Below, piece after piece: positions 14,176-64,000 of a DNA stretch of 64,000 bases. The notes beneath the pieces are model-generated. The model searched no databases, was not told where the DNA came from, and saw only the letters and a list, made by a program, of their open reading frames with translations. The stretch is from Eubacterium sulci ATCC 35585. Lineage in GTDB: Bacteria > Bacillota > Clostridia > Peptostreptococcales > Anaerovoracaceae. Each line of letters begins with the position of its first letter. Positions within the stretch are counted from its first letter, which is position 1. The stretch is from positions 186,001 through 250,000 of the forward strand of contig CP012068.1 in assembly GCA_001189495.1 (NCBI GenBank). Direction: 5' to 3'. Both the position numbers and the translations under genes were made by a program.

Positions 14176-14970
14176 ATGGGTAAAAAAGAAAAGAAAAAAG
14201 CAGGGCTAGGAACATGGCTTTACAGACTCGTAATGCTTGCACTGCTTTGCGTTATGATTTTCAGTGGATATAAGGTTTTCACGATTTATATGGAATATCA
14301 CAAGGGCACAGTTGCCTACGATGATCTTGCAAAGATTGCTGGTGCTGGTGAATCAGCAGATAAGGAAGAAAAGGACCTCACAATCGACTGGGATGCTTTG
14401 ACAAAAATTAGCAAGAATGTCAAGGGATGGATCAGATCTAAGGGTACGGTTATCAACTATCCTATCATGCAGGGAAGTGACAACGATTACTATCTCTACC
14501 ACATCATGACAGGAGAGTACAGCCGTAAGGGTTCTATTTTCATCGATAGCAACAATAGGGATCCGTTCAATAGTTTTTTGACCATTGTTTACGGACACAG
14601 AATGCTTGACGATAGTATGTTCAATAGCCTCGGAAATTACTTTGAGGATGCGAAGTACTATAAGAAGCACAAAGTTATCGACATTTATACGCCTGAGAAG
14701 AACTATAAGCTTGAGATTTTCGGTGCAGCAAATGTAAATGCAACTAATGAGAGCATATATAATCTCAATATTGCAGAGGATGATGTATCAACTAAAGAAG
14801 CATACATCAATAATGTACTCAGCAAAAATGAACTCGCTGGCTACAAGGGAACCGTAGATGTAACGGCAAATGACAAGATAGTTATGCTAAGTACCTGTAC
14901 TTATGACCCAGGCGATGACAGAATTGTTGTATGGGGAAAACTTGTAGAAAAGACTCCTGAAAGCAAGTAA
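14176..14970 (+). CDS. srtB: Class B sortase
   Basis: 264-residue membrane-anchored transpeptidase that attaches surface proteins to peptidoglycan. Basic head, one helix at about 15-37, then the sortase barrel: catalytic His141 in YGHRM, Cys241 in LSTCTY and Arg249 in DDRIVVW. The extra helix between His and Cys and the TC-TYDPGDDR spacing mark class B. No NPQTN-like substrate gene was found in the window, so its client is elsewhere. It follows the CobC-like gene by 15 bases and may simply be co-transcribed; it ends at the terminator at 14996. Confidence 0.9.
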   Translation: MGKKEKKKAGLGTWLYRLVMLALLCVMIFSGYKVFTIYMEYHKGTVAYDDLAKIAGAGESADKEEKDLTIDWDALTKISKNVKGWIRSKGTVINYPIMQGSDNDYYLYHIMTGEYSRKGSIFIDSNNRDPFNSFLTIVYGHRMLDDSMFNSLGNYFEDAKYYKKHKVIDIYTPEKNYKLEIFGAANVNATNESIYNLNIAEDDVSTKEAYINNVLSKNELAGYKGTVDVTANDKIVMLSTCTYDPGDDRIVVWGKLVEKTPESK

Positions 14971-62280: not shown

Positions 62281-62636
62281 GGGGATGTAAAGGTTTCGAC
62301 GGGGGTGTAGAAGCCCGATAAGCGAGCCGTGGTTCCGGATCCACGTAAAAAGTCGGACGTTAAATATAAACGCTAAAAATAACAACAAACTCGCATTTGC
62401 TGCGTAATTAGCAGCCCGCGTGCCTATTCAGGTTCACCTACAGACCTGATGTCGGCATCGACTATGTAGGAAAACTTTGCGGTGAGGCCCGTAACCGTAA
62501 GGGACTAACGGGATAACTGTGGTAGTAGTCTGCTGATGAGCGGCTGCCACGGCGAAAATTTATTCATCAGCTGCGCTCGGAGAAAATCGAGTGGAAATGC
62601 TTTCGGACGCGAGTTCGACTCTCGCCATCTCCACCA
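62281..62636 (+). ncRNA. ssrA: tmRNA (transfer-messenger RNA)
   Basis: Rescues stalled ribosomes. 5' end GGGGATGTAAAGGTTTCGAC pairs as an acceptor stem with CATCTCC followed by A-CCA at 62633-62636; the T-arm GAGTTCGACTCTC is directly before. The tag reading frame starts at GCT 62372 and ends at TAA 62405-62407, encoding AKNNNKLAFAA, with the hydrophobic AFAA end expected for ClpXP targeting. Length about 356 nt is normal. CCA is encoded. Confidence 0.95.
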
Positions 62637-62644
62637 AAACAAGC

Positions 62645-62676
62645 TGAACCGTTGAAATTTCAACGGTTCATTTTAT
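62645..62676 (+). terminator. Terminator of ssrA
   Basis: 13-bp perfect stem TGAACCGTTGAAA / TTTCAACGGTTCA followed by TTTTATAT. Confidence 0.85.
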
Positions 62677-62687
62677 ATATATACGAA

Positions 62688-62846
62688 TTATACACGAATT
62701 TTATCTAAAATTGACGTCGCTTTGCTTTCCTCTGCTGGGTAAAAGTGGCTATAAACATTTAAAGCTGTTGCGATGTCGGAGTGGCCGGGCCGTCTGCTTA
62801 TCTCTAAAATATTTATATTATTGTTAGCTAATGAGGATATATTATG
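62688..62846 (-). pseudogene. C-terminal remnant of a tyrosine integrase
   Basis: Minus-strand frame of 52 residues ending at TAA 62688-62690. It reads ...NINILEISRRPGHSDIATALNVYSHFYP..., the standard end of Tn916/phage-type tyrosine recombinases, including the catalytic His in GHSD and the catalytic Tyr in NVYSH. Everything upstream (the remaining ~300 residues with the two arginines) is gone; the frame stops being integrase-like at the start of the next ORF. It lies 52 bases from the 3' end of ssrA, a classic integration site. Confidence 0.85.
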
Positions 62847-63089
62847 AAAATGACAAAAGAAGAACTGAAAACGGAGATAGAGAGTTGTCTATCAGATGTA
62901 ACATTTATTTACCACAATAAAAATGCGGGAGTCACCGCAACTGTAGATGATTTTAAGCCAAAATACCAAGCATGGTTTGGAGAGTTGTGGAAAGAATATT
63001 CAAATGCGGATGATTTAATGAGTGATACGTTTTATGACAATCGGTCACTTAATGAAATAGTACAAGAACTCGATTTTCAATTGTATTAA
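62844..63089 (+). CDS. Small hypothetical protein in the ssrA hotspot
   Basis: 81 residues, acidic, cytosolic, no membrane helix (MKMTKEELKTEIESCL...; Trp/Tyr-rich middle AWFGELWKEYSNADDLM). ATG 62844 has GAGGA nearby and overlaps the integrase remnant end. It is followed by two terminator hairpins. Not recognised; probably cargo left from the integrated element. Confidence 0.6.
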   Translation: MKMTKEELKTEIESCLSDVTFIYHNKNAGVTATVDDFKPKYQAWFGELWKEYSNADDLMSDTFYDNRSLNEIVQELDFQLY

Positions 63090-63100
63090 ACACGGAACGT

Positions 63101-63132
63101 ACCAGGATGACCTTAGGGCTCCTGGTCTTTTA
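63101..63132 (+). terminator. Terminator of the small hotspot ORF
   Basis: ACCAGGA / TCCTGGT stem with inner CC/GG step and CTTTT tail. Confidence 0.75.
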
Positions 63133-63153
63133 ATTTGAAAAAATATTGTTATT

Positions 63154-63181
63154 AAACATCGCAAGCAAGCGATGTTTTTTA
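63154..63181 (+). terminator. Second terminator hairpin
   Basis: AAACATCGC / GCGATGTTT stem, loop AAGCAA, followed by a T run. Confidence 0.75.
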
Positions 63182-63189
63182 TTGTAATA

Positions 63190-63862
63190 AGAAAACCCCG
63201 CGTTGGACGTGGGGTTCAGTGTACGCTACGCGTTTGACCAGAAATCCTCTCTCCGTTAGGATATAATTGCGGTCTGCCAACTGCAAAATCCTAGGAGGAG
63301 GAGATCATGGGTCTTAACGACATAAATAGTCTATCGCATTCGAAATGGAATTGCAAATACCATATAGTATTTGCACCAAAGTACAGAAGAAAAGTGTTTT
63401 ATGGACAGAAAAAAGTAGCAATAGGAAAGATTTTAAGACAACTGTGTGAATGGAAAGGGATAAATATTATCGAAGCTGAGGTATGTCCTGACCATATACA
63501 TATGCTGGTTGAAATACCACCCAAAATGGCAGTTTCAGGCTTTGTAGGGTACTTAAAAGGTAAAAGTAGTACGCTAATATATGAGCAATTCGGCGAACTA
63601 AAATATAAATATAAAAATAGGTCGTTTTGGTGCAAAGGATATTATGTAGATACGGTTGGTAAAAACACGAGCCGAATTGCGGAGTACATAAGAAATCAAC
63701 TTGAAGAAGATAAGTTGGGAGATCAATTAAGTATAGCCGAAGTTGGATATTTAAGTAAAAAGAAAAAGTAAACTAAGTGAACGCAGTTGGCAGAAGCGTT
63801 TACGCGTTGGACGCGTAGCGAGGAGCAAGGGCTATGCCCGAATGTGAAAAACCCCACGTTCT
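63190..63862 (+). mobile_element. IS200-like element (IS200/IS605 family, tnpA only)
   Basis: One Y1 transposase gene with subterminal hairpins: left AACCCCGCGT-type hairpin 63194-63216, right TACGCGT-TGG-ACGCGTA hairpin 63801-63817. Ends are approximate because this family makes no target duplication. Three nested inverted-repeat pairs (63207/63850, 63224/63811, 63273/63783) flank the gene. No tnpB. Confidence 0.75.
63307..63771 (+). CDS. tnpA: IS200/IS605-family Y1 transposase TnpA
   Basis: 154 residues, full length for the family. HUH motif in CPDHIHMLVEIPP (His-hydrophobic-His near 61-63) and the nucleophilic tyrosine in GYYVDTVGKNTSRIAEYIRNQ (about residue 120). Acts on single-stranded DNA hairpins at the element ends. 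AGGAGGAGG ribosome site before ATG 63307. Unbroken, probably active. Confidence 0.93.
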   Translation: MGLNDINSLSHSKWNCKYHIVFAPKYRRKVFYGQKKVAIGKILRQLCEWKGINIIEAEVCPDHIHMLVEIPPKMAVSGFVGYLKGKSSTLIYEQFGELKYKYKNRSFWCKGYYVDTVGKNTSRIAEYIRNQLEEDKLGDQLSIAEVGYLSKKKK

Positions 63863-63866
63863 GATA

Positions 63867-64000
63867 TGTACCCAGAATCCTGGACACATGTTATGAACTA
63901 AGCGGAACACATGGATGTTATCCTGTACTTTACAGGTGGCATCCATTTTGTTTTTCTTTGTATTCTTTCATTGTTGTAATAACTTATGTATTCATCTAGT
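63867..64000 (-). mobile_element. End of an IS3-family element, continuing beyond the window
   Basis: Starts with a TGTACCCAGAATCCTGGACA inverted-repeat end in the 5'-TG form of the IS3 family, directly adjoining the IS200-like element; inward of it lies the C-terminus of the transposase gene. Confidence 0.75.
63898..64000 (-). CDS. IS3-family transposase, C-terminal part (runs off the window)
   Basis: Thirty-three residues are visible on the minus strand, ending at TAG 63898-63900: LDEYISYYNNERIQRKTKWM then PPVKYRITS. The YYNNxRI...P-x-x-Y-R pattern is the standard end of IS3/IS150-type DDE transposases. Confidence 0.85.
   Translation of the reverse strand, partial: LDEYISYYNNERIQRKTKWMPPVKYRITSMCSA

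Follow-up and report, generated by a model that had tools for sequence, protein, structure and literature searches.

The window analysed here, a stretch of 64,000 nucleotides, corresponds to bases 186001–250000 of the 1.74-Mb single-contig genome of Eubacterium sulci ATCC 35585. Its right end begins with the tmRNA gene (ssrA; 62281–62636, plus strand), which was detected by ARAGORN and by Rfam (RF00023, 192.8 bits) and encodes the tag AKNNNKLAFAA. Both programs found the gene whole across the junction at its 3' end, which would be a former attachment site. A terminator-like hairpin (62646–62669, plus strand; –16.1 kcal/mol) stands directly 3' of the tmRNA CCA. The direct repeat TACGAATT / ACACGAATT (62681–62700) overlaps the 3' end of a tyrosine integrase remnant (62688–62843, minus strand), which is convergent with the tmRNA gene and retains 51 codons (62691–62843) and the stop codon (62688–62690). 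An orphan open reading frame of 81 codons follows (62844–63089, plus strand), then two terminator-like hairpins recognized by eye, and an IS200-group element (63182–63861, plus strand), the left junction of which is ambiguous by a few bases. The window ends within an IS3-family element (63862–64000, minus strand) of 1467 bp that runs 1328 bases past it. The original prediction, made from the sequence alone, had described the tmRNA gene as an insertion hotspot with an integrase scar, an orphan open reading frame, and IS200-like and IS3-family elements stacked in 1.4 kb. All of these components were recovered (phrog_3711 for the orphan frame, NF033573 for the IS200-like element, and a TTC target repeat for the IS3 element). 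The stacking holds within the window, but the region unmatched in the sister species is 5.8 kb long and ends outside it.

The integrase remnant was assigned from PHROG families and from full-length relatives. Against Pfam alone, the tail scored 13.6 bits, below the cut-off of 27.1, and it matched two PHROG integrase families at 4.6e-8 and 4.1e-7. Matches to the tail were present in 95 of 391 genomes of the class at E ≤ 0.001, E. sulci itself included. Most of the best relatives are open frames of ~380–425 amino acids showing ~50–60% identity over residues 2/3–49, and the one full-length relative checked contains Phage_integrase and Phage_int_SAM_3 domains. The catalytic-tail remnant pointing into the tmRNA 3' end was thus correctly recognized in the original prediction. 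No relative with more than 60% identity was found in the searches (all matches in phages and plasmids were below 60%, and viral contigs gave a single one at 34%).

The surroundings of the relatives were compared in 29 fetched loci. In 14 of them, the 3' end of a tRNA or tmRNA gene faces the end of the integrase gene at 55–90 bp; ten of these integrases are full-length and four are short or broken (L041, L043, L046, and L052). Four of the 14 lie at a tmRNA gene (L036, L042, L048, and L052), three of them full-length. For the remaining 15 loci, no RNA gene was found next to the integrase within the fetched stretch. A hairpin of –13 to –29 kcal/mol stands behind the CCA in all 15 RNA-gene loci compared (the 14 relatives and E. 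sulci), and CACG-type repeats were recognized by eye at the equivalent place in 12 of the 14 relatives, L045 and L048 being different. Because the hairpin, the repeats, the spacing, and the orientation recur behind the RNA genes of the relatives, we interpret the sequence that follows the CCA, terminator included, as the attL arm of an element integrating into tRNA or tmRNA genes. The hairpin at 62646–62669 is accordingly taken to have been brought in with the attP arm of the element, and the TACGAATT/ACACGAATT repeats are likely to be attL arm sites bound by the integrase. The attL arm would now supply the tmRNA terminator, and its loss could cost the host that terminator. The inner 22-nt palindrome of the hairpin is identical to that found behind the tmRNA gene in two other loci of the family (L094 and L107).

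The original prediction proposed that a genomic island had integrated at the tmRNA gene and had been largely deleted, and that a second copy of the tmRNA end should mark attR. The attL layout fits the first part of this proposal; attR was found neither in the E. sulci genome nor in the 26 kb to the right. The genome-wide searches covered 27 nt of the tmRNA end with up to three mismatches and 18 nt with up to two, and the 26 kb were searched for exact same-strand matches of at least 11 nt. In the relative G320, which has an intact integrase at the tmRNA gene, a 20-nt repeat of the tmRNA end is present at +35.7 kb, so that attR should be recognizable in E. sulci. A further 18-nt copy lies at +36.0 kb in G320, 0.3 kb from the first; both are at the end of the element distal to the tmRNA gene, perhaps reflecting a tandem or an earlier integration. 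The 27-nt search did not find attR in G320 or G450, although G320 has the 20-nt copy; it proves nothing alone, and the 18-nt search was therefore run in the E. sulci genome. Because no displaced tmRNA 3' fragment was found, we class the locus as a remnant and not as an island, and for the same reason we only infer that a deletion removed attR.

A parallel case was found in the genome G045, in which an integrase tail of 76 codons stands behind the tmRNA gene and is followed immediately by a 15-nt copy of the tmRNA end, the first four letters of which also fit the integrase gene. This arrangement indicates that an element was deleted between its integrase gene and attR. From its sequence, the G045 scar is of the same kind as that of E. 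sulci, with attR kept. The duplicated tmRNA end that was looked for is therefore present in parallel cases, over 20 nt in G320 and 15 nt in G045. These comparisons also bear on another account of the E. sulci tail, according to which it never belonged to an element residing at this tmRNA gene but was introduced in fragmentary form, either along with the IS elements or through illegitimate recombination. The integrase gene is cut at 51 codons, and with attR missing this is what the arrival of a fragment would leave. Such an arrival is nevertheless very unlikely, since the spacing, the orientation, the terminator, and the arm repeats match the attL arms of the relatives at tRNA and tmRNA genes, and since the G045 scar retains the tmRNA-end repeat. 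Under the preferred reading, integration followed by decay, the scar would illustrate how an ssrA island is eroded starting at attR, with the attL arm retained.

Comparison with the sister species (G001) delimited the variable interval. Collinearity between the two genomes extends to ten bases past the CCA (85% identity) and resumes from position 14493 of the E. sulci locus L009 (79%). Between these flanks are 5.8 kb in E. sulci and 1.27 kb in the sister, without a blastn match between them. The site behind the tmRNA gene is thus variable in the sister too, since a different stretch is present there. The sister stretch (L019:2589–3855) contains a 53-codon open reading frame without a match to NCBIfam models. 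The tail itself had no match at 1e-6 in 246 other genomes of the family; the remnant is therefore not fixed among relatives. We also scanned 70 tmRNA loci of the family (30 plus 40, from 118 genomes over the cut-off) with an integrase model built from 15 relatives; several loci near contig ends were left out of this set, and three of those retained have fewer than 300 bases behind the tmRNA gene. A convergent integrase lay directly behind the tmRNA gene in 5 of the 70, namely three long ones (L080, L094, and L107), that of E. sulci, and that of G045 (L100). This frequency is a lower bound for the use of the site since the scan addressed the tyrosine-integrase type only, and it gives moderate support to the view of the tmRNA gene as a hotspot.

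The IS200-group element encodes TnpA, a Y1/HUH transposase of 154 residues (63307–63771, plus strand; Pfam PF01797, 136.8 bits; NCBIfam NF033573, 150.5 bits) that has the TnpA of ISHp608 among its sequence relatives in the PDB. The element has no TnpB and carries subterminal hairpins at both ends. Its boundaries were drawn from pairwise comparison of ends and from a second copy in the E. sulci genome, which is 99.6% identical and has a whole right-end hairpin; this level of identity suggests a recent arrival. The IS3-family element stands in the loop of the right-end hairpin of the first copy, with TTC on both sides, and the last ~20 bases of the IS200 element are found beyond it, outside the window. 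The IS200 element came first and the IS3 element later, because the latter splits a hairpin that the second, uninterrupted copy keeps whole. Later elements thus filled the site, as had been predicted, with the additional feature that one interrupts the other. The IS3 element has OrfA with a helix-turn-helix domain and OrfB with an rve domain in overlapping frames, inverted ends, and a 3-bp target repeat. These features are those of the IS3 family, from which it shows no notable difference. Three relatives in the same genome show 71.5% identity over 1.2 kb and are flanked by 3- or 4-bp repeats.

The first IS200 copy stands behind an intrinsic-terminator hairpin with a T tract (63154–63180, plus strand). 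Both copies begin in the T-rich end of such a hairpin, and the two hairpins differ. Because near-identical copies have unlike hairpins in front of them, these hairpins belong to the target and not to the element. For the second copy, a comparison of its left flank with the sister genome gave no match, and no empty site was found for the E. sulci copies. A second type of IS200 element was preceded by a hairpin, judged by eye, in all four copies opened (three in E. sulci and one of the two present in the sister). Altogether, the five IS200 copies opened in E. sulci, leaving out an IS200 fragment at G000:C1:713076–713191, stand directly behind a terminator hairpin (5/5).

This association was then counted in other genomes. 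In a first set of 31 loci, 17 had a mapped left end and enough flanking sequence, and all 17 elements stood behind a hairpin with a T-rich end. Folding energy discriminated poorly in this set, windows of the flanks folding as well as the site in 35 of 199 cases for L140 and in 20 of 199 for L143, and controls based on T tracts were therefore added. The second set consisted of the best 80 of 569 loci from a TnpA search of named public genomes, mostly metagenome-assembled genomes of Firmicutes. It shares at least five sites with the first set. Left ends were located for 76 elements, 68 of them with at least 64 bases of flank. A combined requirement for a hairpin and T's was satisfied at 65 of these 68 sites versus 91 of 1700 random points, the three exceptions being L194, L212, and L215. 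A hairpin in front was present in 67 of the 68 copies, L212 being the only site without one. Runs of at least four T's were present at 52 sites, each with a hairpin at the foot of the tract, and 15 of the 16 sites without such a run still had a strong hairpin. Of the two features, the hairpin is therefore the less variable. An earlier automatic terminator scan (46 of 65 sites versus 46 of 3900 random points) was set aside because its left-end finder often mistook the terminator for the end of the IS.

T tracts of this length are in general less often preceded by a hairpin. One was found at the foot of 430 of 2209 tracts in the flanking DNA and of 77 of 557 (14%) in intergenic-like DNA. The test is permissive, with 80 positives among the 268 T tracts of a 22-kb portion of the E. 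coli MG1655 genome; for intergenic tracts of MG1655, the count was 11 of 65. These controls weigh against the idea that IS200 sites merely reflect selection for harmless places combined with guide pairing to T-rich DNA, hairpins taking no part. Such pairing has a precedent in IS608, which picks its targets in this way (PMC7290912, excerpt), and in most copies A's predominate at the foot of the left hairpin (AAAACC), as expected for a guide that pairs with T's. The contrast of 52 of 52 with 14%, or with the intergenic tracts of MG1655, is not explained by selection alone, and pairing with T's leaves aside the strong hairpins at the 15 sites without four T's in a row. We consider this idea unlikely.

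E. coli provided a distant comparison. Of 5426 genomes, 3052 contained an IS200C match, which covered 80% or more of the query in 2040 of them; among 40 listed loci, 13 were opened, representing 12 distinct chromosomal sites. Insertion was at a hairpin at all 12 distinct sites (behind prc, htpX, icd, pqqU, ompX, uhpT, carB, plaP, and other sequences). A tract of at least four T's with a hairpin at its foot was present at 12 of the 13 loci, the other (L260) having a hairpin and a shorter tract. At prc, htpX, and pqqU, MG1655 has empty sites, in which the terminator runs on into the sequence that forms the right flank of the insertion; apart from about one ambiguous base, nothing is duplicated or lost. 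These sites show that the E. coli terminators predate IS200C insertion, and they are the only ones that establish the absence of target duplication. At ompX, unlike these three clean cases, the stretch examined in MG1655 stops at the junction. The five top matches opened for the htpX, ompX, and prc flanks all carried the IS, with no empty site among them.

Since terminators are also places where transcription ends, insertion might be guided by the act of termination, or by a paused polymerase, exposing single-stranded DNA, without TnpA reading the hairpin. In agreement with this possibility, an annotated gene of the same orientation precedes the insertion at 10 of the 12 distinct sites in E. 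coli, and TnpA proteins of this family act on single strands (PMC7923331, excerpt). At L194, L215, and L221, the hairpin lacks a T tract and transcription would be terminated inefficiently, which argues against a role of termination as such. In strain A30 (L274, between prc and htpX), two IS200C copies are arranged in head-to-tail orientation, and the second follows immediately upon the right-end hairpin of the first. This location is also difficult to reconcile with exposure by termination, although the tandem could have arisen otherwise. Overall, we regard exposure as a doubtful explanation, if one deserving some weight.

An explanation in which the hairpin itself is read is suggested by the structure of the elements. 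In pairwise comparison, the right end of the IS200 group consists of a hairpin with a T-rich tail behind it (for example ATGTTTATT), and an intrinsic terminator likewise consists of a hairpin followed by T's. TnpA may accept a terminator in place of its own right end, so that the junction between right and left ends would be re-formed with the terminator as the right end. The A-rich foot of the left hairpin may in addition pair with the T's, like the IS608 guide (PMC7290912, excerpt). The A30 tandem, whatever its actual origin, is what mimicry of the right end predicts. We infer this mode of target recognition from the counts and the resemblance, and consider that the chances are about even that IS200-group transposases choose their targets by structure, mistaking a single-stranded intrinsic terminator for their own right end.

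By counting, the preference for terminators looks general, with mixed results for six plasmid relatives, the hairpins of which were judged by eye. A clear terminator was seen for L251 and L254 only (68% and 38.6% TnpA identity, respectively). No T tract follows the hairpin of L250, which is an IS200C, or that of L252, the hairpin of L253 is weak, and L255 has a TnpB gene beside the element, the left end of which was not located. A point against the rule is the disruption of a Yersinia pestis coding gene by IS1541, a relative of IS200.

Taken jointly, the observations are best explained by a decayed ssrA island and by IS200 inserting 3' of terminators, followed by IS3, an account that we hold to be highly probable. 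A prophage or another integrative element with a tyrosine integrase would have entered the 3' end of ssrA, leaving the tmRNA gene whole and bringing its own terminator directly behind the CCA. Most of this element, including attR, would have been lost later, leaving the attL arm, the integrase tail, and perhaps the phage-like open reading frame. The IS200 element would next have inserted in the T tract behind the terminator hairpin downstream of the orphan frame, its single-strand transposase inserting directly 3' of intrinsic terminators on the strand that reads the hairpin and then the T's. Finally, IS3 would have entered the loop of the hairpin at the right end of IS200, giving the present arrangement.

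The tmRNA scar represents unremarkable decay of an island of a familiar kind, and the IS200 rule is the unexpected part. Genomic islands carried into tRNA and tmRNA genes by tyrosine integrases are well known (Islander; PMC4383910, excerpt). The locus shares with them integration at the tmRNA 3' end, a gene kept whole, an integrase at the tmRNA side and, in the intact relative G320, an attR fragment; it differs in having the attL arm only, without a displaced fragment. The IS200 element resembles the members of the IS200/IS605 family, such as IS200C and the studied model ISHp608, in relying on a Y1 TnpA alone, in the hairpins at both ends, and in that no target duplication was seen. According to a published description, members of this family insert 3' of a defined sequence of four or five nucleotides (PMC7290912, excerpt), whereas the constant feature of the targets analysed here is the terminator hairpin. 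Group IIC introns are located downstream of the stem-loops of rho-independent terminators (PMC7923331, excerpt) and are alike in target choice only, since they move by RNA-based retrohoming and have no homology to IS200. Terminators upstream of transposase genes have been read as parts of the IS ("mobile attenuators", with IS200 work cited; PMC2965389, excerpt); in contrast, the near-identical E. sulci copies have unlike hairpins, and in MG1655 the hairpins are present although the IS is not. ISPpu9 similarly inserts into extragenic palindromes, the REP sequences (PMC8450116, excerpt), but these form one sequence family, whereas the IS200 hairpins vary from site to site. No statement of the terminator rule was found in the literature searched, including the available portions of PMC9208149, PMC2965389, PMC7290912, and PMC7923331; coverage of the older IS200 literature was thin, and the rule may already be known.

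IS200 is widespread yet rarely met among mutants. A target preference extending from this genus to E. coli would be a simple and testable reason why a very common IS does little damage. If targets are indeed recognized by structure, IS200 would be a gene-sparing transposon that tracks gene ends without a fixed sequence, which would explain both its wide spread and its rarity among mutants. The rule may point to a structure-guided insertion enzyme of only ~150 residues, and IS200 copies could serve as markers of transcription terminators.

The rest of the 5.8-kb interval comprises, besides the two IS elements, the phage-like open reading frame and a restriction-modification pair. The 81-codon frame is a distant relative of phage proteins of unknown function, with a weak but nearly full-length match to PHROG families (phrog_3711, 4.4e-5). 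It had matches of 28–38% identity, near the threshold, in 3 other of 247 family genomes and none in phages or viral contigs. Beyond the window are the rest of the IS3 element, the last IS200 bases and, as judged by eye, degenerate fragments and a short CopG-like open reading frame. The stretch L009:12013–14283 encodes an EcoRI-type adenine methylase (PF13651, 497 bits) together with a GmrSD_N-HNH protein (PADLOC type II restriction enzyme, 2.1e-168). This pair does lie in the species-specific interval, just beyond the window, where cargo genes had been anticipated; it may have come with the island, but the pair and the CopG-like frame may also have arrived separately. We did not treat the whole interval as a single island, since its components look as if they had been acquired one by one. 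Sequence homologous to that of the sister begins again with a gene for a 186-residue HNH protein, which is followed by a GNAT acetyltransferase gene and a cobalamin riboswitch. The CopG-like frame stands in front of the methylase/GmrSD_N-HNH pair, and relatives of the methylase are present in 80 plasmid records.
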